A stretch of 35,257 nucleotides of DNA, taken from the IMG/VR virus record IMGVR_UViG_3300044730_000033, positions 1 to 35,257 of that record, one strand, 5' to 3'. Source of the DNA: a virus. Positions 1 to 17,544 of this stretch are shown piece after piece. Position numbers and translations under genes: made by a program. Numbering within the stretch: position 1 is the first letter of the stretch; each line of letters opens with the position of its first letter. The notes beneath the pieces were generated by a model, which saw nothing but the letters and a program-made list of their open reading frames with translations, was not told where the DNA came from and made no database searches.

Positions 1-2904
1 TCCGTCTGGTAAGACAGCCTCGTATCTAACCCAGTAGTCACCTTCACGGTACAGTGGGAGATATACCTGCAGACGCTTTTCTGCCCACAGTTTACGGATC
101 TCGTTAGCCGCTGAAGGAGAAAGGTTCTTAGTAATGAGATCAACATACTCATCACCCATTTCGCGGTAACTGTCCAACATCTGCTTGTAGACATTTTTAA
201 GGCTGTCCGGCAGGGCATTGAACTGTTTGGTCAACGGATGATTAGCAAATTTAGCAGAGTAGAAATCTACCTGAAGCCGTGTTGACTCATGGGCAATGAA
301 GTAGAACTTATCTTTTATAGCAGCGTTCTTTTTAACTTCTTGCTTAATGGCCCGCGTCCACCGATTGACATTTCGGTTTAACTTTTCTCTACGGGCTTTG
401 AGTCCAGACGCTTTGGCGTTAAGTACACGCAGCAAATACCTGAGTGCGGGCAATTCTTTACTGAAAATGTAGACCTGCTGCGGTATAGACGTAAACGCAT
501 AGATGCCCGCACGAAGATTGTCTTTTATCCTTTCCGAATCAAGGATGCGCCGAATGGCCCTACGAATCTCCTCGTTAGGCATCGGTAAGTTTTTAATTGC
601 ACGGCCTATAGCGTTACCAAGATCGTTAAGGTCAACACCTTCAAGATCTTCTACAGACTTAGGCGGCTTCGGTTTTTTCCGCTTTACAGTCGGAGTGGGC
701 TTAATACCCATCGCGGCGTCACGCGCTTCCATGGCTTCGTAGTACGCCCGAATCTCTGCATCGGTCGCGTCTTCACGAAGTTCCGGTATCGGCGGGAGTT
801 CAGCAGGGGCTGCAGCAGGTTCAGCGGCGGCAGGTTCTAGTGCAGTCGGGAGTGCCGCTTCTCTTCCAACAACATCGCCAGCAACTCGTGCAGCAGGCTC
901 CAGTCCTGCGCCCTCAACTCCTTCAACTGCTGGTCCTTCGGCAGGAGGTCCCGATGGAGGCAAGCCAACGCCTCCTCCAACTGGTTCACGCTCAACTTGT
1001 TCAGCAACGCCCTGTGTTGTTTGTTCGGCTGCACGGGTCTCCTCCGGGGCTGCCCCCATCATAACTTTACGCTTACCCGATTTATCAGGGCGGCTTACAA
1101 CGCCTTCAACCTCCATCTGCCTGATAAGGGCTCTAGCCCGGCTGTATGGGATATTAAGTTTTTCTTGAAGCGACGATATGCTGGTTTTGCCAGAAGTCGT
1201 CACAACCTCAACTGCCTGTTGGTAAACAGGATCGACTGGAACTTCCGGAGTAGGAGTAGGCAAAGCCTGTTGTGCAGCGGCACCTTGCGGTATCGGAGCG
1301 ACGGAAGGCGCAGCAGTCGTGGTCGGCTCAACAGATACAGTCGGTGCGGGTGCAGCGGTCTCGCCCAAGCCCAGTGTTTGCTGAGCAGTTCCAACCTGCG
1401 GAATTGGCGCAACCGGCGCGGCTTGTACCGTGAACGGCTGATCCTTGGGCGCAGCCTCTGCTCCCGGCAAGTTAAGTCCTTTAGCCAGAGCGGGGTCAAT
1501 CTGAATCGTCTGCTGAGCGGCAGCGGTCTGGGGTATAGGTGCTACGCCCGCACTTACTGTTTCTTCAGGCGGTTTGCTTAATTCTTCAAGACGATTACGG
1601 AAGATATCAAGACGAGTTGCCGTACTGTCGAAACTATCAGTAAGCCGCTGCACGCCTGTGTCGTAGTCACCGCCGACGCTTTCGATACGCTCTCTCAGTC
1701 CGTCCAAATCCGACAGCATTTCAGCACGTCGAGATTGAGCAGACTCCATCTTCAAGATTTCGTCTTGAATCTGCTTCGGATTTAAATTAAGAGGTTCTTG
1801 TCTAGCCTCAATTGGTGCGTTTTTAGCGCGAACTTTAGGCGGCTGTTCGTTAAGCGGCACCGGGGCTTCAGGCACCGTCTCTTCAATAACTGGCTTCTCT
1901 TGCGCCTTAACAAGTTCTTCGGCTTTAGCACGATCTTTGCGGGCTCCAACAGCACCAGCAGCACCGCCCATGACGGGGCCGAGAATAGCAGCGCCAATAG
2001 CCGCTTGGGTGTATTCGTCTACCGCTTCTTTATCACCAAGTGATAATCCTGCTTGCCACCGCTCAAGAGCGGTCTGTGCAACTTCCTGCGGTATTTCAAA
2101 CGCAGTGCCTTTTACCGCACCTTCAACAGTACCGCGTGCAGTAGTTTTCAGCGTACCGTCACGCGCAGCCTGTACAAGTTTTTTAGCCGATTCTTCCGCA
2201 AGTTCTTTACTTGGCGTGATAAGGTTTTTAAGGAACGGCGTTACTTCGACAATCGCTCTCAGTCGATTAAACCCAATGTAGTCAAGTCCTGCTGATGCAG
2301 CGCCCGCTGCAACGGCTTTGAGTGCGGAAGTTTCTTCAGGTGTACGACCTTCAGCCAACGCACGTTCCTGCTCCTGCGCTTGGCGCAAAAGCCCCTGAGT
2401 GGTGTATTGAGTCGTTGCTGTGCCGTAACCTGCGGCAATACCGCCCAACGGCGTTGTAGCAACAGATGCAACTGTACCGGCTGCGATAGGCGCAACCGCC
2501 TGACCTACCGTGCCACCAACAAGTTCCTTAAACGCTTCCCAGTTTTCGCCTTTACCAAACCCGCCGACAGACTGGAATTTGGACTCACCGGCAGCAAGAA
2601 GTTTGCGACGGTTCTCATCAGTTGGATTAGCAGCGAACTCGGCCGCTTCGTCAGCAAGACCAAGAGTCTGGGCAGACTCCATGAACGAACCCCAGAATCC
2701 GGGGCGTTCTTTGGGAGCAACCTGTTCAGCAGGTTGAGTCACAGATTTCGCTATCTGGCCTTCAGTAACCCAACGGCCGTTTACAAGAACGGCTTTTTCT
2801 CCGGTCTTTCTGTTGGTCGCAGTCTGCGTATAAGGGACCCACTGCCCGTTAATCAGGACAGCCTTTTCCCCAGTCTTGCGATTAGTGGCGGTTTGGAATG
2901 CCAT
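1..2904 (-). CDS. giant internal virion/polyvalent-type protein with FtsK-gamma-like domain (3' end beyond window)
   Basis: An uninterrupted frame of 968 codons runs from ATG at 2904 to base 1 with no stop, so the C-terminus lies outside the window. I checked every in-frame triplet. The N-terminus has two copies of a 20-residue unit (residues 4-23 and 27-46, NRKTGEKAVL core). Two Gly/Ala-rich hydrophobic stretches follow, at about 128-165 and 302-323, and could contact membrane. A Pro/Gln/Ala-rich linker holds three VAPIPQ...AQQ units (about 454, 498, 535). Residues about 558-615 match the FtsK gamma winged helix (DPVYQQAVEVV, SISSLQ, RQMEVEGVVS). A basic segment and long helices follow to 968. 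The architecture resembles phage polyvalent proteins thought to be injected with DNA. The start is 8 bases after the upstream stop, with a weak ribosome site. The internal-virion role is inferred from its place in the cluster. Confidence 0.85.
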   Translation of the reverse strand, partial: MAFQTATNRKTGEKAVLINGQWVPYTQTATNRKTGEKAVLVNGRWVTEGQIAKSVTQPAEQVAPKERPGFWGSFMESAQTLGLADEAAEFAANPTDENRRKLLAAGESKFQSVGGFGKGENWEAFKELVGGTVGQAVAPIAAGTVASVATTPLGGIAAGYGTATTQYTTQGLLRQAQEQERALAEGRTPEETSALKAVAAGAASAGLDYIGFNRLRAIVEVTPFLKNLITPSKELAEESAKKLVQAARDGTLKTTARGTVEGAVKGTAFEIPQEVAQTALERWQAGLSLGDKEAVDEYTQAAIGAAILGPVMGGAAGAVGARKDRAKAEELVKAQEKPVIEETVPEAPVPLNEQPPKVRAKNAPIEARQEPLNLNPKQIQDEILKMESAQSRRAEMLSDLDGLRERIESVGGDYDTGVQRLTDSFDSTATRLDIFRNRLEELSKPPEETVSAGVAPIPQTAAAQQTIQIDPALAKGLNLPGAEAAPKDQPFTVQAAPVAPIPQVGTAQQTLGLGETAAPAPTVSVEPTTTAAPSVAPIPQGAAAQQALPTPTPEVPVDPVYQQAVEVVTTSGKTSISSLQEKLNIPYSRARALIRQMEVEGVVSRPDKSGKRKVMMGAAPEETRAAEQTTQGVAEQVEREPVGGGVGLPPSGPPAEGPAVEGVEGAGLEPAARVAGDVVGREAALPTALEPAAAEPAAAPAELPPIPELREDATDAEIRAYYEAMEARDAAMGIKPTPTVKRKKPKPPKSVEDLEGVDLNDLGNAIGRAIKNLPMPNEEIRRAIRRILDSERIKDNLRAGIYAFTSIPQQVYIFSKELPALRYLLRVLNAKASGLKARREKLNRNVNRWTRAIKQEVKKNAAIKDKFYFIAHESTRLQVDFYSAKFANHPLTKQFNALPDSLKNVYKQMLDSYREMGDEYVDLITKNLSPSAANEIRKLWAEKRLQVYLPLYREGDYWVRYEAVLPDG
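1057..1233 (-). other. FtsK gamma-like winged-helix domain (within the giant protein)
   Basis: Encodes residues about 558-615. From memory, the E. coli FtsK gamma domain shares the DP-(L/V)-(F/Y) start, AV..V, K.SIS..Q, the Y.RA recognition helix, QME..G and VS. The residues I recall as making base contacts with KOPS in FtsK (Asn, Arg and Glu of the recognition helix) appear here as Ser, Ala and Arg. The fold therefore looks conserved but the DNA specificity may differ. Confidence 0.75.
2767..2895 (-). repeat. 23-residue-period duplication at N-terminus of the giant protein
   Basis: Residues 4-23 and 27-46 are nearly the same (TATNRKTGEKAVL, then I/V-NG-Q/R-WV), with a period of 23 residues. 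The DNA copies differ at many third positions, so the duplication is old and kept by selection on protein sequence. The function is unknown. Confidence 0.85.
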
Positions 2905-2912
2905 GGCTAATC

Positions 2913-4298
2913 TTAATCAGGAACCCAATCTTCGCCCGGAAGTTCTGCCGCACCCGCACTTTCCTGATCAGTAGGATAAGCATCCTGCAACGGCGAAATC
3001 CCCGGTATGTAATACCCCTGCACCACAAGGTCTTCTTTGACTTCGTTAAGGTCTCTCTGGGCATTAACTACGTCTGGGTGCTGCTTGTTAACATTGCCCT
3101 CAAAGTCCGTATGTCTTTTGATAGCGGCCTTCAAAACAGCCTGTTTGTCTCTTAATTCAGCCAAAGCCTCGGCCGGGATTCCTTTGGGCCCCGGCGTGAC
3201 ATCCTTCAATCTCTGTTGCAAATCAGAGTATTTGGGGTTTGGCTTACCGTCTGCCAAAGTACGCGGCGTACGTCCTAACTCTCTTCGCAGACGCTCCGCT
3301 TCGTTAGCCGCTGCGCCCTGAATTCCCTTCAACTTAACAGCACGCTTGAATGCGGTATCAGCCTTAGCCTCCGCAGCGGTAGCCTCAGTAATCTTGTCGC
3401 TCGCCTTCTCAATGTCGGCGTAGATCGTCTTCTTAAGTTCAGCAGCCTCTTTGAAACGCCCCGCCTTCTCAAGTTCTTTGACCTGCAGCAAGGCAATCTC
3501 AGCCAACTTCGCATCACGCGTGGCCTTCTTGACCTTTTCAGCAGTTGCTCTCTTACGCGATGCCTTACCTTTCTGGGCTTTTGCCAGTGAAGAGAGCAAG
3601 GTCGCCCCGCTCTCAGCAGCGTTAGCGGCGACATCACCCCAGTATTCGTCACGGTCGAGTCCGGCTTCTTCCTCAGCAACACGCTCAGCAGCGGCTTTGT
3701 CTTCAGCAAGAAGTTTCTCTCGCATAGACATTGACTGAGCGTACTCGCCCAGTCCGCGCTCTTGTTGCTCTCGTCTAATACGTTCTTCCTCAGTCTCGAC
3801 AAACTTAGTCGGGTCCTGACCGAGCCGTGCGATGTTCGCAGCCTGCATCTCCTCCCAAGTCTTGTACTTCGGGATGTCCGAGTACATCTGAGGAGCAGCG
3901 GTGTTCGCCGTACCACCTTCGTCAAACGCAACAATACCGCCACCGGCAAACGACGGGTTCTCCATCCTGCCTGCAGGTAGCCCACCAAGTCCCTGACTCA
4001 TCATGGCTTGCGGGTTTTGCGGAGGCATCGCAGCAGGAAGACCGGCCTGACCCTGCTGTGCCGATTGGAGCATGTTCATCTGCTCACGGATGTTCGGAGT
4101 CTGCAAAGCCGGAGTCGGCTGACGCTTCATCCGCTCAAACTGCTTCATCAGCGCATAGAGATCAACAAGCGGCGCAACGCCATCGTTTGCCATGCTCTTT
4201 ACATAGGCGATAGCCTGATCAACAGGCATACCTTTGCTCATCGCCTGTTGGAGCGAAGCCATCATGGTGCGACCTGTTTCGCTAACCGGACCGATCAT
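2913..4298 (-). CDS. internal virion-like protein, coiled coil
   Basis: 461 aa, with a clear GGGAG site seven bases before ATG. The N-terminal ~110 residues are helical and Met/Gln-rich. Residues 117-129 carry a double-glycine motif (FAGGGIVAFDEGG) that recurs in other proteins of this phage. Residues ~165-400 are highly charged heptad-like helix with many Ala, Lys and Glu, expected to form long coiled coils. There is no signal peptide or enzyme motif. It sits between the Gln-rich protein and the giant FtsK-gamma protein with gaps of 2 and 8 bases, so the three are probably co-translated. By position and composition it is a candidate ejection protein comparable to those following the tail hub genes of podoviruses. 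I do not recognise a named family, so the role is inference. Confidence 0.8.
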   Translation of the reverse strand: MIGPVSETGRTMMASLQQAMSKGMPVDQAIAYVKSMANDGVAPLVDLYALMKQFERMKRQPTPALQTPNIREQMNMLQSAQQGQAGLPAAMPPQNPQAMMSQGLGGLPAGRMENPSFAGGGIVAFDEGGTANTAAPQMYSDIPKYKTWEEMQAANIARLGQDPTKFVETEEERIRREQQERGLGEYAQSMSMREKLLAEDKAAAERVAEEEAGLDRDEYWGDVAANAAESGATLLSSLAKAQKGKASRKRATAEKVKKATRDAKLAEIALLQVKELEKAGRFKEAAELKKTIYADIEKASDKITEATAAEAKADTAFKRAVKLKGIQGAAANEAERLRRELGRTPRTLADGKPNPKYSDLQQRLKDVTPGPKGIPAEALAELRDKQAVLKAAIKRHTDFEGNVNKQHPDVVNAQRDLNEVKEDLVVQGYYIPGISPLQDAYPTDQESAGAAELPGEDWVPD

Positions 4299-4300
4299 AA

Positions 4301-5323
4301 TTAACTCCCGAGCGAACCGAAGAGCCCGCCAAGCCCACCCGTCGTACCTGCCAACATGCCAAGTGTACTAGGCGGTTGCTTGTAGATTTCAGTCGTCTTG
4401 TCAGTGGACGGAATACCACGGATGAGGTTCGACATGAACTCCAACTGCTTGTACGGGTACTGCATCTCGTCCATGAAGCGTTGATAGTTGGAACTGAGCA
4501 TCTGCTGCTTGAGTGCTTGCTGCTGTGCGCCCGCGCCGAGTTGTGCCTGAAGGATGCCCGCACGTTGACCGTACTGCTGCTGACCCAACTGGCCCAACTG
4601 ACCGGCTGCGGCCAACTGTTGCTGAAGTCCCTGCATACCAAGTCCAGCGCCGAACTGGCGAGACTGCTCACCCAACTGCGTTCCAGCAAGGCCATACTGA
4701 GCGCGAGTCGCCGCATCCTGCATAGCCTGTTGCGAGGCTTGCTGGTAGGCATTCTGAAGCCCGGTTGCTTGGATGTTCTGCAACTGCTGCTGAAGACCTC
4801 GTTGACCTTCGGCTTGGAGCAACGCTTCGCGGGTACCGCCTCGCGCACCAGACCGGATACCTTGCGCTTGCAAGCCGGGAATCTGACGAGCGTAGTCTTG
4901 AACCGCCTGCTGCTTTTGCTGATCAATGACGCTCTGCATGTAGGGCGACATGTATTTGTCGAGGCCGCCCGGTTGGTCAAACGCAGACTGAAAATACTGC
5001 TGTTGTTGAAGAGGGTTATATCGGGCAAGGTTTTGCGCTTGGAGCGCAGCGAGCCCCGTGAATCCTGCCGCCTGTCCGGTGTAGGGCGATACCTCCATAC
5101 CAGACAGATCGCCCATGGCTTTTTCTTGGAGCGGGCTCAGTCCTGCAACAAGGTCGCCTTGATAGGGCTGGAATCCCGTTTCGTATTTACCCGTTTCTTT
5201 GTTGAATTTTGGATAGGTCAGCGCCGCGCCGAAACCCAGAATGTCGGTGGCATATTTACGCGCCCACTCCGGAACATTAGAAGTGGCGGTTTCGGTGTAA
5301 CTGGGGGTGACTGTGTCTGCCAT
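4301..5323 (-). CDS. Gln-rich internal virion-like protein
   Basis: 340 aa, preceded by GGAGG nine bases before ATG. The middle (about residues 85-275) is unusually rich in Gln, Ala, Leu and Gly and should be one long amphipathic helix bundle. The ends are less biased; the C-terminus is Gly-rich and hydrophobic (LGMLAG, GGLGGLFGSLG). Such Gln/Ala-rich helical proteins are typical of podovirus ejection proteins, which form a conduit across the cell envelope. A similar protein commonly lies next to the giant internal protein in uncultured marine phages, as I recall. Neighbours on both sides are also internal-type proteins with gaps of 2 and 14 bases. No catalytic motif is visible. Confidence 0.8.
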   Translation of the reverse strand: MADTVTPSYTETATSNVPEWARKYATDILGFGAALTYPKFNKETGKYETGFQPYQGDLVAGLSPLQEKAMGDLSGMEVSPYTGQAAGFTGLAALQAQNLARYNPLQQQQYFQSAFDQPGGLDKYMSPYMQSVIDQQKQQAVQDYARQIPGLQAQGIRSGARGGTREALLQAEGQRGLQQQLQNIQATGLQNAYQQASQQAMQDAATRAQYGLAGTQLGEQSRQFGAGLGMQGLQQQLAAAGQLGQLGQQQYGQRAGILQAQLGAGAQQQALKQQMLSSNYQRFMDEMQYPYKQLEFMSNLIRGIPSTDKTTEIYKQPPSTLGMLAGTTGGLGGLFGSLGS

Positions 5324-5337
5324 GATCTACGCCTCCA

Positions 5338-8300
5338 TCAACGGCGCTTGCTGCGCGACGGTTGAGGTAAATACTTATCCGGATTGACGCGAGGAGCCTG
5401 CTTAGCCCGGCCCGTTCTGGCACGCCGAATCTGGTCCATCATCTTATACAGTTTTTTAGCACCGGCTTCCGTAGAACCGTTGCCGAGGTGCGATACCACA
5501 TCAGCCGGAATGACGAACTCGCCATCAGCCAAGGCAGCACGTTGAATGCCCTTTCCGCGAATCACAGCAGGAATGTCATCGGACATACCATCTCCGGGTC
5601 CTCGCAGGAGTTTACCACCGGCTTTGTATTCCGGCATCGCGGCCATGCCCCCCGTGGCAAACCCGAAGTTGTATCCATTAGCCGGATTAACCGCAGCGCC
5701 GGTACGAGGGCTACGAGTCAGGTCGGCAATACCGCCAGCCTGATACTTCTTAGTACGCTTCTTTTTCATATAGCGATCAAAGTCCTTAATAATGCCGCCG
5801 CGAGCGGCCGCTAGGGAAATTTCAGCCTCACCTTCTGGCACAAGTTCGGGGCCTAAACCAACGCCGCCTGAAGGAGGACTTTCTTCGTCTCCTCCAAGCC
5901 CTTTTTCCCACTCTTCAAAATTAAAGTCTTTAGTGAATCTTGGCGGCAGTCCCTTCCGCCATGTATACGGGTTCGGTTTAGGAGCGTTAGCCATGTCTTC
6001 TGGCAATACCCCGGTGTACATCGGGCGCTCACTGACAATTTTATACTTGGAGTCGTTCTTGACCTGTGCATTACTAATAGGACGGCCAAGCATGTAGTTG
6101 TAGATGATGTCAGTCATCATGAAGTCTTGGACATTACGGGCTGCGTCGTCAGACGGTCCTTCGCCCATTAGAGACAGCCAAGGTTTAACAACAGACTTAT
6201 AAATATCGTCGGCTGAAGCACCTTGTTTGACAATCCCTTGATCAACAGCCGAATTAATTAACTGCGTCATGTCATACAAAAAGTCTTCGTTACCAGTACG
6301 ACCGTAAGCCGCCTGACCACCGAAGTTATTTTTGTTGGTGCGATAGAAGTTGATAAATCCTTCAGCCAATTCTTGCGGCAGGGCCTGCCCAAAACCACGC
6401 CCTTGATCAATCGCTTTCCAATAATTACGCAGGGCTACGTCACCAAACTCTTTGGTGTTAACCATTGACGCGCCAATTGCTGCAATCGCCGCAAACGCAA
6501 GACCCATTGGACCTGCCCCGGCAAACGCAGTCCACCCCATCTGTGAAGCAACCTGCGAGAGGGCTACGCCAAGTCCATACCCACTTAGTGCCGACGCGCC
6601 TTCTTTACCAGAACTAATGTCTTTGTATGTGTCGTACGCAGCAAGCAGAGCGTTAAGGCCGGTACCAAATTTGCCACCAAATTGAATGTCGTTTCTGCTC
6701 AAGAATTGATTGAGCATCTGCGGATTTGGCGTCTTATCGCAGTTCTGCCACGCAAATACAAAGTCGCCGTTCGGGCAAACTTTGAAGAAGTCACGCAGCG
6801 GATTACGCGGGTCGTCCGGGCGATAAGTTTCCGGCGGGGCCGGAGCAGGGGCGGGAGCCGGAGCAGGGGCCGGAGCAGGAGCCGGAGTGGTATCTCCGCC
6901 CCTACAAGGTATTGGCTCCCCAATTCCACGGGTATAAGTCGCCCCGTCTGGGCACTGCCCGTAACAAATATCATCTGCTTGCACTTCATCCGGCGAGCAT
7001 CTCTGCTTTGGATCGGGTTCTGGAGCAGGGGCAGGGGCCGGGGCAGGGGCCGGGGCAGGGGCCGGGGCAGGGGCCGGGGCAGGGGCCGGGGCAGGGGCCG
7101 GGGCAGGGGCCGGAGCAGGGGCTGGGGCCGGAGCAGGAGGTGGAGCAGGGGCCGGAATAATGTCGCACAGTCCCGTTTCAGGATTGCGAGTAAAGCCCGG
7201 AGGGCACTCCAACGTTATCGGTGGGCGCGAAGGAGGGGGTGGTGGTGGCGGTGGCGGTGGTGGCGGCGGTGGCGGTGGCGGCGGAGCAGGGGCTGGGGCC
7301 GGAGGTTGGATAGGCGCACACTGCCCTGTTTCAGGATTAATAGCCTGACCTTCAGGGCATACCGGAACGCAACGAAGCCCGCGACCGTCTAACAAATCAT
7401 CTAAAACTTCGCCCGGAGGACATATTTTGCCGGGGGGCGCAGGCGGCGCTGCGACAGGCTCACATAACCCCTCTGCATTACGTGCGTAACCCTCCGGACA
7501 CGGTGTTGGCGGAGGTGGCGGCGGGGGTTCAACGGGCTCGTCCGGACAAACCTCCCCAAGATCTGGATAAATAATAGATCCGTCCCAGCAAACCTCAAAT
7601 TTAGGCGCAGGAGGCGGAGGTGGCGGTGGAGGCGGAGGCGGCGGTGGAGGCGGAGGCGCAGGGGCAGGAGGTGGGGCCGGTGCAGGCACCACATCACACA
7701 AGCCCGTTTCAGGATTGCGAGTAAAGCCCGGAGGACATTCTTCCGGAGGTGGCGGTGGAGGCGGAGGCGGCGGCGGAGGCGGAGGCGGAGGCGCAGGGGC
7801 AGGAGGTGGGGCCGGTGCAGGCACCACATCACACAAGCCCGTTTCTGGGTTGCGAGTAAAGCCCGGAGGACATTCTTCCGGTTCGGTCGGCCCCGGAGGT
7901 TCAGTTGGTCCCGGAGGACCGGTAGGGCCGGGGGGTTCAGTTGGTCCCGGAGGACCGGTAGGGCCGGGGGGTTCAGTTGGTCCCGGAGGACCGGTAGGGC
8001 CGGGGGGTTCAGTTGGGCCCGGGGGGCCTTCACCGCCCGGAGGACCGCCACCGTCGCCGTCACCCCCATCACCGTCGCCGCCATCACCGCCAATAGGGCC
8101 GCCGCACGGGTCTTGGCCCGTAAGAAAGTCTAACGGGCTGTACTCCATTCCCGCATTTTTAGTGCCGATAGGACACTTTATTTTGCTAGGTGGCGGAGGA
8201 GGCGGAGGTGGGGCAGGGGGGTAGCCCCACGGGTAATTAACGATTTCGCCAAAATTTGGAGAAGCCCGGTACGGCGTCGTCTTAAAGTATTCGGTTAAAT

Positions 8301-9702
8301 CAAGCGGAGCCGGTTCCGGCTTTGGGGGTTTTAGTAAAGATTGATAGTAATCAGCAAGTTCTGGGGAGAACGGCTGAACACCAGCGGGGTTTCCGCCCTG
8401 ATCTGACGCAGTGCTAGATGCACCGCTGCTGTAATAGTCAGACAGGGCGGGAGCGAAAGGGCGAAGGTTCTCGAAATACTTCTGCCTCCTTTCGTCTTCA
8501 CTCTCCGTGGTGCCGCCTTCTGCGTATGAAGCAACGCCTCCCGAAGCCATGTTCAGGCCATAAGGCCCCTGTGGTCCGTAAGTAGGTGGGGGGCGTTCAG
8601 GTTCTTCTCGCCTAGGAGGAGGCTGGTTACGTTGCTGCTGTTGTCTAAGATAATCTTGATATCCCGTATAGTCAGGGAACTCGGTCGTGTAGCCTTGACT
8701 TGGTGTATAGCCGCCTTCCAAAAAGTAAGGCTGACCGGGCTCGCCAAAGCGCGGGTTAACTTGTCCACGCGAGAATTGCACATTCCGATACTCGACCGGC
8801 TGCGACTTCGGCATCGCTTTCTGCTGGGCTTTCTGTTCGGCTCGGTTAATACCGTAAAGCGCGATGGCTTGCAGAAGCGGGTCATTACCGAACAAGCCGC
8901 CTTGTCTCTGCTGCCCTTGCTGACCGCCCTGCTGCTGTTGCGGCTGGCCCTGCTGCCTGCCACCAAATATCCCTCCCAAAATCGCGTCAAGAGCGCCGGG
9001 CTGTGCGGTAGTAGTCTTGGGTGCACCCGTTGCAGGTAGCCCTCCATAAATCGTATTAGTCAGGATGTCTTCGTCCGACATTTTGGAAAGGTCTGACGGG
9101 GTAACTCCTTTACTGGAGGCAATCGGGGGCGTTCTTCGTGCTTCCTGAGCAATACTTGTTAGCCCACCAATCAACTTAGTCCCGGCATAGGCTTTCATGC
9201 CCGCTTCAAGACCTTTTTGCAGGTCGCCTTTCACCGCACCGTAAGCGGCACCCGTAAGGAGAGCCGTAGTTTGCGGGTTTTGTACCGCCGTTTTTGCCAG
9301 CGAACTGATGCCCCGCCCGATTGAAGTCAAGAAGGTGGTTAAGAAGTTGGCTTGAGGTAGCCCCGTTACAGGGTTAATAGGAAGTTCAAACCCTTGCGCC
9401 CGTGCCATTTGCTGCAGCGCACGCACCTCGTCTTTATTCATGTGAACAAGGGATTTGTCTGCCCCTTGTCCTTGGGCTGCAACAAGCGAAGCAAGGCCCC
9501 TGATTGAGCCGCCTCCTGCAAAGTTGGCCTGTGGACGTTCTTGCCCCGTCATCGGGTTGATCTGAGCGTCATACCCACTAACCACCTCAGATGGGCGGTT
9601 AAAGTTAAGCGGGGCGGAGTACGTACTGCCCTGCATGTTCGACATGGGGTAAGACGGGACCTGATCTGGCTCATTCCCGTCAGTTAAAAAGTTACGATTC
9701 AT
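5338..9702 (-). CDS. giant proline-rich internal virion-like protein with Cys modules
   Basis: 1454 aa, start supported by GAGGG six bases upstream. N-terminal third: a double-glycine motif near residue 62, helices, and a Gln/Gly-rich run near 255-275. Residues ~480-960 are extreme low complexity: [12 protein letters not shown] units, long polyproline, (Pro-Ala)n, and at least five two-cysteine modules of the type [14 protein letters not shown]. Residues ~975-1260 are ordinary globular sequence with a hydrophobic Gly/Ala stretch at ~1034-1081 that might insert into membrane. The C-terminal ~150 residues are basic with more double-glycine motifs and a [12 protein letters not shown]...[14 protein letters not shown] block that I recall from internal or tape-measure-like proteins of many environmental phages. 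Function is inferred: carried in the virion and perhaps crossing the periplasm. Secreted proteins would suit paired cysteines. Confidence 0.85.
7019..7155 (-). repeat. 12-base repeats encoding (Pro-Ala)n, with GGGCAGGG octamers
   Basis: A 12-base unit reading GGGGCAGGGGCC on the plus strand is repeated in tandem. On the minus strand it encodes alternating Pro and Ala. Seven exact GGGCAGGG octamers sit at 7029, 7041, 7053, 7065, 7077, 7089 and 7101. The edges are less regular, with GAGCAGGG variants. Confidence 0.9.
7616..7879 (-). repeat. tandem duplication, polyproline plus two-Cys module
   Basis: Two head-to-tail copies, 7616-7744 and 7745-7879, differ by a 6-base indel in the polyproline tract and a few substitutions near the NPETGLC codons. 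Each encodes one polyproline arm and one [14 protein letters not shown] module. A third, more diverged copy lies near 7140-7225. Confidence 0.9.
7898..8040 (-). repeat. 36-base tandem repeat encoding [12 protein letters not shown]
   Basis: Units start at 7898, 7934, 7970 and 8006 at exactly 36-base spacing, nearly identical, with the last one partial. They code for 12-residue Gly/Pro/Thr/Glu repeats in the giant proline-rich protein. Confidence 0.9.
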
Positions 9703-9741: not shown

Positions 9742-10350
9742 TTAAACATTCTGATTTGAAATCCAAGCGACTGTGATGATGACGGACGGGATTTCAGGGA
9801 TGTTACCCGATGCCGCCTGTTCCAAAAGCACTACGTTAGTATCAGCGGACTGCCACGCAATCTCGAAATAGTCCCCAGCCGTCAAGGTCAGCATCCAGTT
9901 CCACGCCGCCACAATTTCAGAGTTCGGCCCGTCAATAACTATTTTACTAGCCGAGTGAGGTACATTGATTCCATTTACCCGAATCCAAATGTAAACGTCA
10001 CTTGCACTGCCGCCCGTCTTATCCAACTGGGCTGAGAACGCGATGTTATAGACGCCCGTTTCAGCAACGTAAATTTTATTGGTGTCTCGGGTAACGTTAA
10101 ACGCCGTTTCAGAAGAGTCATACGTACTGTTAACCTTCATCAGATTAACGGCGCTGGCTACTGGGTTCGTCTGCGTTGTGGTGTCGTAGAACGAGCCGTG
10201 CGGCTTCGGTGCGTTTAAAGCGTTCGTAACCAAATTAAAGAAAAGTCGCAAGACGTTGGCAAACTGATCCTGATAACGCTGCTGATACTCAACCGGTGCG
10301 ACCGGCAAGTTCGGCGGGACAACGTTACGAATTTTCTGACTGATTGCCAT
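9742..10350 (-). CDS. jelly-roll-type virion/fibre protein
   Basis: 202 aa from ATG at 10350, which shares its A with the TGA stop of the nozzle gene (TGATG). No ribosome site is visible, so translational coupling is likely. The frame also opens one codon earlier at TTG, which I did not choose. The N-terminal ~60 residues are helical and aromatic. The remainder is beta-rich with a pattern typical of C1q/TNF-like jelly rolls: TGVYNIAFSAQL, DVYIWIRVNG, LTAGDYFEIAW and a closing VIITVAWI strand. Such domains are common at the outer ends of phage fibres and form trimers. It follows the nozzle gene directly, so it may attach to the tail tip. I do not recognise a specific homologue, and the fold call is from pattern only. 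Confidence 0.75.
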   Translation of the reverse strand: MAISQKIRNVVPPNLPVAPVEYQQRYQDQFANVLRLFFNLVTNALNAPKPHGSFYDTTTQTNPVASAVNLMKVNSTYDSSETAFNVTRDTNKIYVAETGVYNIAFSAQLDKTGGSASDVYIWIRVNGINVPHSASKIVIDGPNSEIVAAWNWMLTLTAGDYFEIAWQSADTNVVLLEQAASGNIPEIPSVIITVAWISNQNV

Positions 10351-12656
10351 CAACGCTTGCCGTCTGGTCTAATATCCAAACGCATCGCGCCCATCTGCCA
10401 CGCTACGCCAAGCCCAGTTGAGGCCAAACGGAAGGTCATCTGCCTACCCCTGATGCGGGTGTAGACCTGCCCGGTATAAAGTTCGATGGGTATCGCAGTT
10501 GCCTCTTGCACTGTCGGACTATCGCCCTGTGCATACGGGGTACCCGAGTTCTGTCGGGCTTTAACGGTGAGCGTTACAGCCGGGTTGTTCGAGGTTGAGC
10601 CGCTGAAGGTTAAGTCAGGCAGGATGCGCCAGACAAACCCGAAGTTATGCCCATCGCCAATATCAAAGTCCGAAGTCTCAATATAGGCTTCGATAGGCAA
10701 AATCTCCGCCGTGGCGCGGTCGTCATTACCAATTTCGTGGTTCATGACTTGGTTCGGCACGCGGTACGTTACAGGGGTGTACTGAATGTGTGAGGTTGCA
10801 GTAGTGCCGTCATAGCCACGGATACACCCCGTCAGAGAGTTCGTCGTCTTACCGGTGTAGTAGATCTTTTCAGCGTTCGGCAGACTAAGTATGACTACGC
10901 CTTCGTTCGGATAAGACGCGGCGTTGACTATGGGCAGAATTGTGTCGGTGTCGTTGATAGCCGCTGACAGAAAAGACTTCTGGTAACTAAACGCCGCCAT
11001 CGGATACTGACGGAGCGGCGAGTCTAGCCAGTAAGACCGCTCCATGTTGCCGTAGTACCAGATACGCTCAAGATGGTTATAGATAACGTAACGATTGTTA
11101 ACAAGACTATTTGCTGAAGGGTAGAACCACCAGATCTCGTTGTAGCCTTCGTTAGTACCGCACACAATCTGTGCTAACTGATCTGTGTTGATATCGTCAA
11201 AAATAAATTGACGGAGGCTGCAAGGCAGTGTCTCAACGCGACCAGAGTACTGGTAGAACTTGTCCACGCCCATCCAGTACGTGACGTTGTTGACCGTAAT
11301 CGCTGAGTTCGGGGACGCAATGGAGACGTTCTCCATCAAAAGACTCACGCCCCACACGTACGGGGGACCGAGGTACTGCATCGAGAAGAGCGCAGCGTCC
11401 GTCCAAATCAAGATTTCTTGGCGGGTATCGATAGCCGTAACGATGTACGAACCATACGACAGGCGGGATTCACCAGACTGGTTCGTTACTTCAGGTACCC
11501 ATTCAAACGGGTTGTCTGCGTCGGACCAGCGCACAAGCAGCGGATCGAACGTCTCAGCAAAGTTAACAGGACTGTACGGGTTAGAGCCGAACGCGATACA
11601 GAAGTTGCCCGCGCTCGAAGTCGAAACTTGGTACGTGTTGTTCGGGACGTGCCGCCCCGCGTAACTGAACGAATAGGTACCTGACGAACCTGCCGTAGTA
11701 GCCACCGAAATTGGCACTGATAGGCTGCCGGGTATATACGCTGTTGTGACGTACGTGCCCGCTACGATCCCAGTACCCGACACGACCGCGCCTGAAGTAA
11801 TTCCCGTCGAGTCCGCCACTGTAATGCTGGTATCGCCCAGAATAAACGTAGCCGTAGTAGCCGTTTTAACTTGTGTGTTGGCGTAGGCGTTGAGCGTAAT
11901 AGCACGGCTCCAGAACGTCGTGTCTTTTGCCCAGTAAAAGATCGGCCCTGAACGAGGGTTAAAGAGTAAGTTCTCGTTGTCGTTGTCTTGTGACCAAAGC
12001 CGGATCTGGGTGGCTACCGTAGAGCCAATACCCCAACCACCGAAGCCCCACGGACCGCCGCCCCAACCAAGGCCGAGCGAGAACGTGGCGTTACCCGCAT
12101 TCAGTTCTACTGCAGCCACACATGATGCACCGCCGCCTGAGCCTGTAGAAGTCGCTACCTGCGAAGCAACAACTGTGAAGGTGGTGCTTGTTGGAACCGC
12201 GATGACTTCAAGATTAGCGTTAAGCGTTACACCATTTACTACGCCGCCGCCTGAGACGCCCGAGAACGTGATATACGTATTGACCGCGATATTGTGCGGG
12301 GTGCTAGTTGTAACTACTACAGCGTAACTACCGATTGTTGTTGCGAATGGGTTATTCGGCAGAGTAATAGTCTGCGAAAGCGGAGTAATGTCGTGGTAGA
12401 TACCATTCAGTTCGACGTAAAACTTTTGGTTCGTGCCGAGGCCCAGTAGGTTTTCACTGGTAAATGTAATCCAGTTAAAAAGTGACCGACAAACCCCTGC
12501 AAAGGTGTTGGTAGACTGATTGATCCAGCCCCCGATTTTCTCAGCATAACCTGAGCGAAATCGAACTTTGTCCCCCGCGAAGAAGCCGCCCTCGTTGGCA
12601 TACGTCGTGGACTCGCGGTTAACACCGGGACGAAGTTGAAGTTTTTGAAGCGGCAT
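10350..12656 (-). CDS. tail nozzle / P22 gp10- or T7 gp12-like hub protein
   Basis: 768 aa. The N-terminus (LRPGVNRESTTYANEGGF, DKVRFRSGYAEKIGGW) and the central WSDADNPFEW, YWMGVDKFYQYSGRVE and EIWWFYPS blocks match the family that caps short phage tails. These are the P22 packaged-DNA stabilisation protein gp10 and T7 gp12, a beta-propeller nozzle that keeps DNA in the capsid and binds fibres. Two Thr/Ser/Gly-rich inserts (about residues 115-165 and 265-335) look like added Ig-like or fibre-docking domains. The ATG overlaps the stop of the endopeptidase gene (TAATG), and the gene's own TGA overlaps the jelly-roll start. Family membership is recalled from motifs, and the inserts are unassigned. 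Confidence 0.85.
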   Translation of the reverse strand: MPLQKLQLRPGVNRESTTYANEGGFFAGDKVRFRSGYAEKIGGWINQSTNTFAGVCRSLFNWITFTSENLLGLGTNQKFYVELNGIYHDITPLSQTITLPNNPFATTIGSYAVVVTTSTPHNIAVNTYITFSGVSGGGVVNGVTLNANLEVIAVPTSTTFTVVASQVATSTGSGGGASCVAAVELNAGNATFSLGLGWGGGPWGFGGWGIGSTVATQIRLWSQDNDNENLLFNPRSGPIFYWAKDTTFWSRAITLNAYANTQVKTATTATFILGDTSITVADSTGITSGAVVSGTGIVAGTYVTTAYIPGSLSVPISVATTAGSSGTYSFSYAGRHVPNNTYQVSTSSAGNFCIAFGSNPYSPVNFAETFDPLLVRWSDADNPFEWVPEVTNQSGESRLSYGSYIVTAIDTRQEILIWTDAALFSMQYLGPPYVWGVSLLMENVSIASPNSAITVNNVTYWMGVDKFYQYSGRVETLPCSLRQFIFDDINTDQLAQIVCGTNEGYNEIWWFYPSANSLVNNRYVIYNHLERIWYYGNMERSYWLDSPLRQYPMAAFSYQKSFLSAAINDTDTILPIVNAASYPNEGVVILSLPNAEKIYYTGKTTNSLTGCIRGYDGTTATSHIQYTPVTYRVPNQVMNHEIGNDDRATAEILPIEAYIETSDFDIGDGHNFGFVWRILPDLTFSGSTSNNPAVTLTVKARQNSGTPYAQGDSPTVQEATAIPIELYTGQVYTRIRGRQMTFRLASTGLGVAWQMGAMRLDIRPDGKR

Positions 12657-12997
12657 TACGGTACCTTGCGCTCGAAATGCGGCACGTCTTTAAACGACTT
12701 CCAGTTGCCACCCCAGTTGTTCTTTTCGTTAAGCGATTCCCAGTAGTTACCGACGACCTGCAGTTGCTTAATGTCGTAGGTCAGTTTGCCGTCTTTAAAG
12801 AAGTTGAGGTCAATAGCGCACCGCTTTAAATGGATGCTGTTCATCGTTTTAGAACGGCCAGTCTTAACGTAAATCTGTTGCTGTTCGACCGTACGAGCGA
12901 GTTCGCCCCCCGTTACTACTAGGCCCTGTTCAGTGGCAAATTGAATAAGTTTGCAGACATCCAGTAGGAAGGCTGCTTGTTCTTGCACAAGACTCAC
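12656..12997 (-). CDS. M15-type peptidoglycan endopeptidase (endolysin)
   Basis: 113 aa. Zinc-site residues of the M15 (VanY/L-Ala-D-Glu peptidase) family are visible: H56 and D63 in SIHLKRCAIDL, and H107 with E109 in PHFE. The glycine usual at the third position after the first histidine is Arg59 here. TRTVEQQ-like sequence at ~35-41 fits the family's early helix. At 113 aa it is a single-domain enzyme with no cell-wall binding module or signal peptide, so it needs a holin. The start is GTG at 12997, overlapping the holin TGA (GTGA), with AAAGGAGG upstream. It would cut the cross-linking peptide of murein at lysis. Confidence 0.9.
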   Translation of the reverse strand: MSLVQEQAAFLLDVCKLIQFATEQGLVVTGGELARTVEQQQIYVKTGRSKTMNSIHLKRCAIDLNFFKDGKLTYDIKQLQVVGNYWESLNEKNNWGGNWKSFKDVPHFERKVP

Positions 12998-13536
12998 TTC
13001 ATTGCCTCCTTTAGTGCGTCAGTTTTGTCTTTACTGCTCTGACTACTGCCAAAGTAGTACGACACGATCTGCGTAGCAATGGCCGAGAGGACGCCCAGCA
13101 CGTAAATTAGAATGTCCTTGCGCGAGGGATCTACCGGCGTGTCGTCAAACATGACGATGGCAAAGAGGACAAAGGTGAGCGCGACAACACCCAGCGCGAG
13201 AACGGGGGTCACGATCTTATTAAGCAGAGGGGCTTTATCAGAGGTGGCGATCTGTACCTCCCGATCCCGCGCCGAGTCCACGTCCTTGAGCCGCAATTCC
13301 AACTCGGCCAAGTCTAGTTTGTCTTCCTCAATACGCAGTCGCATGAGTTCTTCTTCATGCTCCATCTGCGCCATCTGGATCTTAGCCATGTCCTCGGGCG
13401 ACATGTCGGGCTTTAACTCCACGCCCAACTTTTCTTCAACAACTTTCTTGCCTTTGGCAAGTACAGCATTTGCCACAAGACCGAGCCCGTTGGAGAGCAG
13501 GGGCTGGATAATTGGTAACAGCGCGGCAGGAATCAT
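12994..13536 (-). CDS. GTA-type holin (two C-terminal TM segments)
   Basis: 180 aa, with GAGGG upstream and an ATGA overlap with the preceding gene. An N-terminal hydrophobic segment (PAALLPIIQPLLSNGLGLVA) is followed by a charged coiled coil (about 45-100). Two transmembrane helices follow (about 108-128 and 142-162), ending in QIVSYYFGSSQSSKDKTDAL. The last block is characteristic of the holin family first named from gene-transfer agents (holin of 3 TMs). It lies directly before the endopeptidase, which supports release of that enzyme through the inner membrane. The family is best known in Alphaproteobacteria and their phages, a weak pointer to host. Confidence 0.88.
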   Translation of the reverse strand: MIPAALLPIIQPLLSNGLGLVANAVLAKGKKVVEEKLGVELKPDMSPEDMAKIQMAQMEHEEELMRLRIEEDKLDLAELELRLKDVDSARDREVQIATSDKAPLLNKIVTPVLALGVVALTFVLFAIVMFDDTPVDPSRKDILIYVLGVLSAIATQIVSYYFGSSQSSKDKTDALKEAMK

Positions 13537-13949
13537 TTGCTTGCCCTCACTACGTCATCACCTTTGGTCACAGTCACGTGGCCGCCTTCAACGTCCACAC
13601 GCATCGGCTGTTCTTTGCGGTCCAACTTGTCTAGTTTGGCTATAAGACTCTTAATGACAGCAAACTCCGGCTTCTGCTCCTTCTCCGTTGCCCCAGCGAT
13701 ATTAGCCAGCATAGAAATCAATGCCGTCAACGAAGCACCGAGCAAGCCCATCACTGCAGCAATCTTGTCCGAATCAAGCGCAAGACTTGAAAGAACTCCG
13801 ATCACCACGATAGCCGTGATGTACTTAAGTCCGTCCTTGCCGATAGCCTTGCCCGCCACGTCTTTAGCAGACGACTTAGCCTCAAGGCGGTTCAGTTCGG
13901 CCTGAACCTGTGCTTTAAACATTTCTATATCAAGCGGCTTCTCGTCCAT
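13533..13949 (-). CDS. two-TM membrane protein, putative second holin
   Basis: 138 aa from ATG at 13949, preceded by GGAG six bases away. A GTG at 13961 in the same frame would add four residues and overlap the oxygenase stop, and is less likely. The first ~45 residues form a charged helix. Then come two hydrophobic segments, YITAIVVIGVLSSLAL (about 43-58) and KIAAVMGLLGASLTALISML (about 62-81). A second charged helix and a short basic Val-rich end (GGHVTVTKGDDVV) complete it. Size, topology and position just before holin and endopeptidase suggest a role in lysis, as an alternative holin or an antiholin. No family recognised. Confidence 0.75.
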   Translation of the reverse strand: MDEKPLDIEMFKAQVQAELNRLEAKSSAKDVAGKAIGKDGLKYITAIVVIGVLSSLALDSDKIAAVMGLLGASLTALISMLANIAGATEKEQKPEFAVIKSLIAKLDKLDRKEQPMRVDVEGGHVTVTKGDDVVRASK

Positions 13950-13951
13950 CA

Positions 13952-14527
13952 CTATCTCCACTTGGGTCCATCAAACCACGCTGCAACCGAATACCGCTTG
14001 CCCTTTGTAACAGGCAGGGCGGCGTGACGGATGAACGATGGGAAGAAAACAACTGTTCCTTGCTCACGCATCTCGTCTTTATCAGGCGTGTTAGTCACTT
14101 GATCAAACTTCAAGTCCCCGCCTTCGTAAGTGGCCGGATCGCTTAATTGAATGACGCATGAGAGTTTACGGTGGTAGTACGGATCACCATTCATGTAAAA
14201 GATGTCGTGATGTGTCTTGTACTCACCTTTGTTCTCGCCGTCATATTCTGCAATTTGGTAGTAGTCCAGTTTGCTGATGTGGACATCGAACCAATCCTGA
14301 TTAGCGCGGATGGCGAGTTTCCACAGTTCGTCGAACAGGTGTCCGAGTTCAGCATCGCCCTTATTGACGAAACGGATTTTAGACCTGCGGTAGGACGTAT
14401 CTTCCTTAATACCGCCTTTCGTACCGATCTGAGCCTCACTTGAGTCTCGCGTCAGGGCCACATCGATAATTTGCTGACAGTACTCCGCAGGGAAGTACGA
14501 CTTGAAATAACACCATTCGCCTTTCAT
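13952..14527 (-). CDS. 2OG-Fe(II) oxygenase, prolyl 4-hydroxylase-like
   Basis: 191 aa; the ATG overlaps the stop of the WNGS protein (TAATG). The non-haem iron facial triad is visible: H106-x-D108 (KTHHDIF) and H168 (SFIRHAALPV), with R178 ten residues later for 2-oxoglutarate. Supporting blocks are LDYYQIAEY before the triad, LSCVIQLSDP, YEGGDLKF, and GTVVFFPSF before the second histidine. All are typical of the P4H/PiuC-like superfamily found in many aquatic phages. It is complete, with no signal peptide, so it acts in the cytoplasm. It lies between genes for Gly-Pro-Thr fibres and the lysis genes. The substrate is not proven: proline in the collagen-like fibres is the attractive inference, other protein targets being possible. 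Confidence 0.9.
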   Translation of the reverse strand: MKGEWCYFKSYFPAEYCQQIIDVALTRDSSEAQIGTKGGIKEDTSYRRSKIRFVNKGDAELGHLFDELWKLAIRANQDWFDVHISKLDYYQIAEYDGENKGEYKTHHDIFYMNGDPYYHRKLSCVIQLSDPATYEGGDLKFDQVTNTPDKDEMREQGTVVFFPSFIRHAALPVTKGKRYSVAAWFDGPKWR

Positions 14528-15066
14528 TACGGGGGGATTCCTACTTGTGCTTCAGAAGTCATATTTATAGCCACCGCCACAATGTCTGTTCCCGCACTAT
14601 TTCTTATTCGTAACGTTGACGACAGAGTCTTCGTTATTATTGAATTGTTAACAGAATTATCCGCGTCTAAAAACCACGATTGCGTAGTGTTTAGTTGAAG
14701 TGCGGTTCCTGTAGTTCCTGCGGTAAACGGATCTCCAGATGGCGCATCCATGTAAGCGTAGTAGTCAGAGTTTGACCCTGATAACAGCCATGAAAAACTC
14801 GTGGTACCGCCGGGGCTATCTGTGTAAGTCGCGGTCCCGTTAGAGTTCAAAGTAATTGAACACTGAGCATAAGCCGTGTTCGGAGAATTAACTACGTCAT
14901 AAGCAAGCAAAGTTGCGGGGTCTAAATAAACGCCCGGATGGAACTGTACCCACGAAGAGCCGTTCCAAACTTTACCTGCTGATGCGGGTACCCATGACGA
15001 GCCGTTCCAGACTTTAATCTGGGCTTGCACCTGCCATGCTGAACCATTCCATACCTTAAGCGGCAT
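14527..15066 (-). CDS. tail-associated protein with WNGS repeats
   Basis: 179 aa, AGAGG upstream of ATG. The N-terminus has three copies of a short unit, KVWNGSxW, at about residues 4-11, 18-25 and 32-39. The rest is Ser/Thr/Asn-rich beta sequence. The WNGSSW unit is common at the ends of phage fibre and host-adhesion proteins and may be a small carbohydrate- or protein-binding strand. It sits 9 bases after the collagen-like fibre gene, so it may be a fibre tip or a fibre assembly chaperone. Function is inferred from position and composition only. Confidence 0.8.
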   Translation of the reverse strand: MPLKVWNGSAWQVQAQIKVWNGSSWVPASAGKVWNGSSWVQFHPGVYLDPATLLAYDVVNSPNTAYAQCSITLNSNGTATYTDSPGGTTSFSWLLSGSNSDYYAYMDAPSGDPFTAGTTGTALQLNTTQSWFLDADNSVNNSIITKTLSSTLRIRNSAGTDIVAVAINMTSEAQVGIPP

Positions 15067-15075
15067 GACGACCTC

Positions 15076-17544
15076 TTAGATTTGGAACCAGATATCGCCT
15101 TGAGCCGCAGCCGTCGGAGTCGTGCTCGATACAAACACTTGGCCGCCGCTCGTATACCCCGTGCTTACATTACGTAAAACCGGGTTAGTGATACTTAGCG
15201 TACCGCTGGTTGTGATCGTGCCGCCGGTCAATCCAGTGCCGGTTGCAACGCTTGTAACAGTACCGTTCCCGTTACCCGTGCCTGCACCAATCGCCGTGCG
15301 GAACGTTGCGGCATCCAGCGCCGACACGGTGTTATCCGCATTGAATCGCGGAAAGGTAACGGCACTCGGGTTAGTGAGCGTGAAGAGGTTGCTACCAACC
15401 GTCGTAGCGCCAAGGCCCGTCCGCGCACCACTTTGAGTCGTTGAACCTGTACCACCGTTAGCAACCGCCAGCGTACCGGCAAGAGTAATCGTGCCGGAGG
15501 AGGTGATGGGGCTGCCCGTTACTGTAAGCCCGGTCGTACCGCCTGAAAGAGCAACGCTAGTAACTGTGCCCGCGCCAGCGCCAATTGCTGTACGGAACGT
15601 CGCTGCATCAAGGGCTGATACAGTGTTGTCCGCGTTAAACCTTGGGAAAGTGACTGCACTCGGGTTAGTAAGCGTAAAGAGGTTAGCGCCAACCGTTGTA
15701 GCGCCAAGACCCGTTCGTGCGCCGCTTTGAGTCGTCGAACCTGTGCCGCCATTAGCCACACTCAGCGCATTGGAAAGACTTAACGCATTAGCCGACAGCG
15801 TCGTACCGTTGAACGTCAGGTTAGCCGAACCTGCCGCAGAGCCAGCATTGTTATAGATGACCTGCGTAGTAGAACCAGCAATCGGACCCGGAGGACCAGT
15901 CGGACCCGCAGGACCAGTCGGACCAGTTAACCCAGTCGGACCATTCGGACCGGTCGGACCCGGAGGACCAGCCACAGTCGAAGCAGGACCCGTGGGACCC
16001 GTTGCGCCTGTAGGACCCGTAGGACCGGTGGGGCCAGTCGGAATCGTAAAGTTAAAGATCGCAGCCGACGTAGTGCCCGAGTTCGTAACCGAAGCCGATC
16101 CCCCGGCAGGGCCAGTCGTAGTCGTACCTACCGTAATCGTCGCCGCAGAACCCGTTGGACCAGTCGGACCAGAAGGACCTGTCGGACCCGCTGGACCTGT
16201 CGGACCTGCTATGCCTTGAGGACCTGTGGGACCGGTTGGACCTGTTGAACCTGTCGGACCCTGCGGGATAGTGAAATCGAACGTCGCTGCAGACAAAGTG
16301 CCCGAATTCGTCACCGCCGCAGGTGTACCCGCCGGACCCGTTGTCGTTGTACCAACAGTAACTGTCGCCGCAGCACCCGCAGAACCCGTTGGACCGGTCG
16401 GGCCCGGAGGACCGGCAACACCGGTAGGACCAGTAGGACCAGTTGGACCCGCAGCACCACTCGGCCCCGGAGGACCCGTCAAGCCAGTCGGACCGCTCGG
16501 CCCCGGAGGACCTGCGACCGTTGAGGCCGGACCAGTCGGACCAGTCGGACCAGTCGGACCAGTCGGACCCGCAGGACCCGGAGGACCAGCCACAGTTGAA
16601 GCAGGGCCCGTGGGACCAGTCGGGCCCGTCAAACCAGTAGGACCAGTTGGGCCGGTAGGGCCAGTCGGAATCGTGAAATTGAATACCGCTGCACTTGTTG
16701 AGCCCGAGTTCGTAATTGCTGCAGGGCTACCTGCAGGACCCGTCGTAACTGTGCCGAGCGTAAGTGTAGCGGCTGAACCCGTAGGACCAGTCGGACCTGC
16801 TGGACCAGTGGGGCCCGGAGGACCCGGCACTGTAGAAGCGGCACCTGTCGGACCTGTAGGGCCAAGTGGACCAGTCGGACCAGTCGGACCCGTTGCGCCA
16901 GTCGGCCCCGTGGGGCCAGTTGGGATCGTGAAGTTAAAGGTCGCTGCGGACGAAGTGCCCGAGTTCGTAACCGACGCAGACCCGCCAGCAGGACTCGTAG
17001 TTGTTGTACCTACAGCAATCGTCGCTGCTGTACCCGTCGGGCCAACAGCACCAGTCGGACCAGTCGGACCAATCGGTCCCGTCGCGCCGGTAGGACCAGT
17101 CGGACCAGTGGGTCCAGTAGGGCCCGTGGGGCCTATCAAGTTTGTCGCCGTTACAATGTCCGTACCGTTACAAACGAGAATGGTCTTGATGCCATTCGCC
17201 ACCGACACGCCGGTCTGGCCCGTGACCTTGACCGTGACAGCGTGACCGCCCGTGGTGTTGTTGTAAATAAAATACAGTTTTCTGTTGTTCGGCACCTCAA
17301 CCACGCGAGCGGCGGTCAAAGCCCCAGTCAACTCAATGTACATATTACGGGCAACGCCGGTTGCGCCGTTCGGGATGGTCAGTATCGTGGGCGAAGCCAC
17401 GTCCGTTACTGCCTGTGTGACATACCCTGCGATAGACTGCTCAAGCAGGGTGCCAAGATTGGTGTTAGTGGTGACGCCCCACGTACCGGACTGCTCGCCC
17501 GTTCCGATCAATTCGAGGCCAAGATTGGAACTAAAAGTAGTCAT
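15076..17544 (-). CDS. collagen-like tail fibre 2
   Basis: 822 aa; GGGG seven bases before ATG. Residues 1-~138 form the attachment domain seen in environmental phage fibres ([18 protein letters not shown] start, [34 protein letters not shown]). Residues ~139-530 are Gly-Pro-Thr collagen-like repeats broken by four copies of a 38-residue module with core VTNSGT.SAA.F.FTIP. Then comes [21 protein letters not shown], and two near-identical ~60-residue modules starting [18 protein letters not shown]. The C-terminus is short ([23 protein letters not shown]). Collagen triplets imply a trimeric rod. It is followed by the WNGS protein and the prolyl hydroxylase-like enzyme, which may modify it. Confidence 0.9.
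15880..17135 (-). repeat. collagen-like Gly-Pro-Thr repeat region (fibre 2)
   Basis: Long runs of GPT, GPP and GPA triplets separated by four FTIP modules. At DNA level this is 9-base periodic sequence of GGACCAGTC type on the plus strand. Proline is mostly in the X position of Gly-X-Y; GPP triplets also put it in Y. Confidence 0.95.

Follow-up and report, generated by a model that had tools for sequence, protein, structure and literature searches.

An FtsK gamma winged helix without the KOPS- and XerD-reading residues in a giant polyvalent-type protein of a podovirus

The window, a viral DNA of 35,257 nucleotides, encodes at its left end a giant protein of polyvalent type, and we confirmed that this protein contains a genuine member of the FtsK gamma family, in which the residues that read KOPS and activate XerD in FtsK are replaced. 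The domain has therefore probably been adapted to bind DNA other than KOPS. Coordinates of the features are listed in Table 1.

Table 1. Features of the giant protein and of the two genes upstream of it
Feature	Position in window	Strand	Residues (aa)	Basis
Giant polyvalent-type ORF, first 968 aa; start at 2904, open at left edge	1..2904	-	1-968	ORF and orthologues
LPD39 (large polyvalent protein associated domain 39)	82..519	-	796-941	Pfam PF18858, 30.7 bits (cut-off 27)
FtsK_gamma winged-helix domain	1057..1233	-	558-616	Pfam, PDB sequence matches, AlphaFold/Foldseek to 2ve9/2ve8
Recognition helix SRARALIRQME	1111..1143	-	588-598	S588/A592/R595 at FtsK N1296/R1300/E1303; E598 = E1306, kept
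Peptide EKLNIPYSR	1138..1164	-	581-589	Counterpart of XerD-activating FtsK 1289-1297 (RQFRIGYNR); R1289 replaced by E581
Pro/Gln/Ala linker, three APIPQ..QQ repeats (aa 455, 499, 536)	1264..1542	-	455-547	Repeat analysis
Conserved N-terminal Gly/Ala-rich module, common to whole phage family	1936..2718	-	63-323	Orthologue comparison
N-terminal tandem repeat QTATNRKTGEKAVLxNGxWV, two copies	2767..2895	-	4-46	None of 100 shuffles scored as high
Late 461-aa gene, next to giant on its upstream side	2913..4298	-		ORF of comparable size and position in L002, L006, L021
DNA ejection protein, 340 aa	4301..5323	-		phrog_4287, E 1e-12; ORF of same length and place in L002, L006

The Pfam profile FtsK_gamma (PF09397) matched residues 558–616 with 66.6 bits (E 1.6e-18 by hmmscan; cut-off 30.6), and every match of a phmmer search against PDB sequences was an FtsK gamma or a gamma-containing chain (E 2e-11 to 2e-9). 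We modelled the domain with AlphaFold from the sequences of the window and of two related loci, L002 and L021 (mean pLDDT 82.5). The best 13 PDB matches of this model in Foldseek were all FtsK gamma, the top one being the KOPS complex 2ve9_A (E 1.4e-5, TM 0.83), and the first match to a non-FtsK structure had an E of 0.03. As both the profile and the fold searches point to FtsK gamma, a generic winged helix is ruled out, and the assignment of 1057–1233 to this domain in a preliminary description, made from the letters alone, is upheld at the same coordinates.

FtsK gamma (PF09397; PDB 2VE8/2VE9, 2J5P and 5DCF) and the window domain are alike in fold, in length and in their place after a Pro/Gln-rich linker, with ∼45% identity in the structural alignment. 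This linker, noticed earlier, is real and is built on three repeats. On the other hand, the window protein differs from FtsK in having its gamma mid-protein rather than at the C-terminus, in having S/A/R for N/R/E and E for R1289, and in having no motor. The earlier observation that no FtsK motor is visible holds, as far as orthologues show, beyond this part of the protein: motor/Walker (RecA-like) families of the FtsK/SpoIIIE translocase type were found neither in the 968 visible residues nor in the full-length L002 and L021 proteins, and the same is true of a terminase domain.

The triple change N1296A/R1300A/E1303A abolishes KOPS recognition by the E. coli and V. cholerae FtsK (PMC2533119), and R1300A or E1303A singly impairs KOPS reading (PMC2680272). 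At these positions we observed S/A/R in the window, N/T/K in L002 and R/E/N in L021; E1306 is conserved in all three. The Asn to Ser, Arg to Ala and Glu to Arg changes of the preliminary description therefore lie at the published KOPS-reading positions, and its view that they point to altered specificity or another use is sustained. XerD activation depends most on R1289, at which R1289E is worse than R1289A and is the most damaging interface change; a nine-residue peptide, RQFRIGYNR, is enough to activate XerD, and it is the same FtsK surface that touches XerD (PMC5052618). Position 1289 is E in the window and in L002, and S in L021.

For comparison, we took 50 cellular gammas from 80 genomes of one phylum, using both high- and low-scoring matches. 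This phylum-wide sample was centred on an Acinetobacter FtsK; a scan with that FtsK itself gave Moraxellaceae only. N1296, E or D at 1303 and R1289 were each present in 50/50 cellular gammas, and R at 1300 in 35/50. Other phage gammas (n = 11, from 10 records) had R1289 in 10 cases and an FtsK-type triad (NRE, NRD, NRQ or NSE) in seven. The window, L002 and L021 gammas stand apart from the sampled cellular and other phage gammas at the triad and at 1289, and the published mutants predict that the changes in the window gamma should abolish both KOPS reading and XerD activation. A second, solo gamma with an N/S/E triad was also seen in a bacterial genome (G020 contig 15, 57040–57207; L172), in a 145-aa open frame outside the main FtsK.

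The part of the giant beyond the left edge, which the preliminary description had proposed to read, was read in orthologues. The L002 orthologue has 1637 aa; full-length orthologues with a gamma have ∼1,640 aa, and complete orthologues in IMG/VR range from ∼1,400 to 2,480 aa. In L002 and L021, the last ∼700 aa match the C-terminal ends of the 'DarB-like' giants (phrog_10089; E 3e-71 and 1e-63), and by tblastn the same module was found in ∼60-kb phages, for example Erwinia PEp14, Vibrio douglas 12A4 and Agrobacterium Atu_ph08 (24–27% identity). The DarB-like giants carry methylase/helicase or lytic annotations, whereas no enzyme domain of this kind was found in L002 and L021, which have gamma and LPD39 before the common module. 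The AlphaFold model of the C-terminal part was poor (pLDDT 55), and no fold search was based on it. LPD39 in the window, ART-PolyVal in one orthologue, the DarB-like C-terminal module in orthologues and the position of the gene among late/virion genes together identify a phage-type polyvalent protein, as had been proposed. A contig scan of bacterial genomes with the N-terminal module found no relatives.

Some relatives of the giant have other domains. The L005 giant (3188–9613) has ART-PolyVal (an ADP-ribosyltransferase, 60.8 bits) just before LPD39 as well as the shared C-terminal module, without gamma, and the L007 giant (9911–16177) has a MORN-repeat match at residues 514–536 plus LPD38. 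A doubled N-terminal peptide is also present in L002, L003, L007, L033 and L036, and many relatives have no doubling. The doubled peptides of different subgroups are unrelated to one another (QTATNRKTGEKAVLxNGxWV, GPWTQYQ, VPxxxLPxGLR and LLEAERRGMLP), and the doubled peptide could serve as an exchangeable tag for docking or packaging.

The capsid protein of the window is 63–74% identical to those of the pelagiphages HTVC023P and HTVC027P, of DSL-LC04 and of Synechococcus phage MinM2, and its structural genes are related, which places the phage with the HTVC023P-like genomes. Genomes of this type are described as podoviruses (PMC9599517). The gene for the giant, the last visible one of the late operon, comes after genes for ejection, tail and head proteins. 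Judged from the sizes and order of the ORFs, L002 and L006 have the same arrangement of ejection protein, ∼450-aa protein, giant and convergent genes, and in L021 the order agrees from the ∼450-aa gene onward, within the limits of its contig. In DSL-LC04, the last late gene lies at the syntenic position and is annotated 'DNA transfer protein'; HTVC027P has a 'putative structural protein' there, with a convergent helicase nearby. The window and DSL-LC04 have homologous ejection proteins (BLASTP E 7e-10). For the giants of DSL-LC04 and HTVC027P we claim synteny alone, because hhalign gave no sequence homology between either of them and the window giant; tblastn of the window giant ORF against cultured phages also gave no match.

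We consider the chances about even that the giant is a virion-packaged, ejection-type protein and that its gamma is a module for binding DNA, either at sites other than KOPS or largely by way of the backbone. The virion role is inferred from the position of the gene and from what is generally seen in phages, whose polyvalent proteins are encoded among virion genes (PMC5512222). Under this proposal, the giant would be delivered with the genome of the podovirus, and the winged helix would be an exchangeable module on a flexible Pro/Gln (APIPQ-repeat) linker. Having lost the KOPS- and XerD-reading residues, gamma would bind dsDNA either with another specificity or mainly through the backbone; binding of dsDNA has been predicted for the FtsK wHTH of polyvalent proteins (Iyer et al. 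2017, PMC5512222). It could thereby keep the giant, whole or as a processed part, attached to the phage genome while this is packaged and enters the cell; alternatively, the attachment would be to a host DNA site after injection. The earlier suggestion that the domain guides the phage's own DNA during entry would come close to the most likely of these readings. The net charge of gamma is +4 in the window against +1 in E. coli, and its wing and helix are basic in the window and L002. The L021 gamma has a net charge of −1, which weakens a general backbone-binding model.

A strong gamma is present in three of the 23 family members compared (the window, L002 and L021), which group together in a single clade in a tree built on the N-terminal module (support 97/98); when viral contigs were searched with the gamma alignment, L002 and L021 again came up and no other locus did. 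L003–L006 are without the domain. L005, the one of these four scanned against Pfam, has ART-PolyVal instead, and L003 retains, without the domain, the linker found after gamma in the window. A second clade (L010/L012-type) has a diverged gamma-like winged helix (hhalign probability 88, E 3.3e-6), near which an IclR-type HTH lies in L012 and L046. With strong gammas in three carriers only and absent or weak ones in the other relatives, the domain is dispensable to the core function of the protein, which counts against the proposed role.

Between the window and L002, DNA identity is 88–98% in aa 451–740 and 55–78% elsewhere in the compared part, and dS drops from about 1.2 to 0.03 in the same segment. 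From this rise in identity and fall in dS, the linker–gamma–linker piece has probably been swapped between phages. Within gamma itself, dN is 0.044 and dS 0.50 (dN/dS about 0.09), values that indicate purifying selection on the domain with a variable reading face: five of 59 residues differ, including all three KOPS positions and 591, and the scaffold is conserved. By counting, five random positions would include all three KOPS positions with a P of 3e-4, for this one pair. Between L002 and L021, gamma is 40% identical, a value as low as that of no other conserved part (57–84%) except the linker after it. Likewise, gamma is the most variable part of the FtsK-like proteins of cluster J mycobacteriophages (20% versus 4%; PMC3706429). 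The variable KOPS positions suggest but do not prove re-specification, because exposed positions vary more in any protein; as the DNA-facing positions are solvent-exposed, their variability could be relaxed constraint.

The same data bear on a possible, albeit less than probable, explanation that gamma has lost DNA binding and is a protein–protein module or a near-neutral, exchangeable spacer. It would account for KOPS residues that are gone and different in each carrier, for the mosaic exchange of the domain with its linkers, for the linker left without a domain in L003 and for an L021 gamma diverging faster than most of its protein. However, the fold is fully kept under the low dN/dS of the window/L002 pair, the wing and helix are basic in these two, E1306 is retained in all three carriers, and relatives, too, have winged helices in their middle regions.

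That the giant acts in the cell rather than in the virion, as a late-expressed DNA-handling factor whose gamma helps packaging, appears quite unlikely. This use has a precedent in Bacillus phages Sam46 and Sam112, in which a gamma is fused to the small terminase (PMC8190038), but the visible part, L002 and L021 are without a terminase or motor domain and the neighbours of the giant are ejection and tail proteins. Several PHROG phage families match the window gamma, and phages make use of the domain in RdgC-gamma, phrog_13700, the Sam46 small terminase and the FtsK-like proteins of cluster J, whose gammas are also the most variable part. Most of those sampled, in contrast to the window gamma, keep an FtsK-type triad and R1289, and they occur in a DNA-metabolism or packaging context and not in a late giant.

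Two further possibilities of the preliminary description do not agree with the residue data; both are unlikely, as judged from the FtsK and XerD of the bacteria studied or sampled, because the reading residues are replaced. Binding of gamma to host KOPS (GGGNAGGG), by which the protein or the phage DNA would be targeted to the chromosome terminus or septum, is very improbable. Although the domain is of the same family as FtsK gamma and L002 retains N at 1296, the window has S/A/R where the alanine triple mutant fails, N1296 and E/D at 1303 are invariant in the cellular sample, and the window has no KOPS enrichment once one Pro-Ala coding repeat is set aside. This repeat, a 12-bp tandem array at 7028–7128, encodes a long Pro-Ala stretch in a 1454-aa late protein; its antisense strand reads as seven tandem GGGCAGGG (KOPS) at 7029–7108, which we took as a codon coincidence and rejected as a real signal. 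The late protein itself (5338–9702) has an imperfect 135-bp repeat, whose encoded units consist of 16 residues followed by (V/I)(V/I)PAPAP, and long polyproline stretches, and gave no match in Pfam or PHROG.

Least probable of all is FtsK mimicry that would activate, recruit or poison XerCD, since, for all that the homologous surface contacts XerD and a nine-residue peptide suffices for activation, the key R1289 (kept by all 50 cellular gammas and by 10 of the 11 from other phages) is E in the window and L002, the same change as in the worst published mutant (PMC5052618), and S in L021, and, with no giant relative found in the bacterial genomes scanned, there is no sign of dif-linked integration.

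It is already known that the FtsK wHTH occurs in polyvalent proteins (PMC5512222) and that a small terminase can carry a fused gamma (PMC8190038). In the survey by Iyer et al. (2017, PMC5512222), the FtsK wHTH is named among the DNA-binding domains that polyvalent proteins contain infrequently; their example, Cupriavidus WP_029307715, places the same family in a large phage/mobile-element protein. In the portion of that work concerned, it is one example in one sentence, without residue analysis; the window case adds a family of podoviruses, the gain and loss of the domain within it and a rewired reading surface. As far as we could find, three points are new: at the level of residues, this gamma has lost both functions known for FtsK gamma; a pattern of swaps is seen between close relatives; and the setting is a podovirus with a DarB-like giant.

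A DNA-reading head with a known DNA-complex structure and known reading residues is thus present in a giant of a type thought to enter the cell first. As its reading code is known, the altered residues allow a direct test of whether the phage has re-tuned it to new DNA sites, and the options are narrowed with KOPS targeting and XerCD interference becoming unlikely. A bolder proposal, which we hold to be unlikely at present, is that phages use the gamma fold as a DNA-reading head that can be exchanged, and quickly given a new specificity, on the giants that they inject, with a stable scaffold and with the three base-reading residues swapped from one close relative to another; if true, the entry protein of each phage would recognise a particular dsDNA site of its own or of its host.

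Elsewhere in the window, a 2OG-Fe(II) oxygenase-like gene lies in the late region (13952–14527; phrog_61, E 2e-28), and DSL-LC04 and HTVC027P have one nearby. Two long collagen-like/tail-fibre-like proteins of 822 and 1685 aa are encoded near each other (15076–17544 and 20845–25902).
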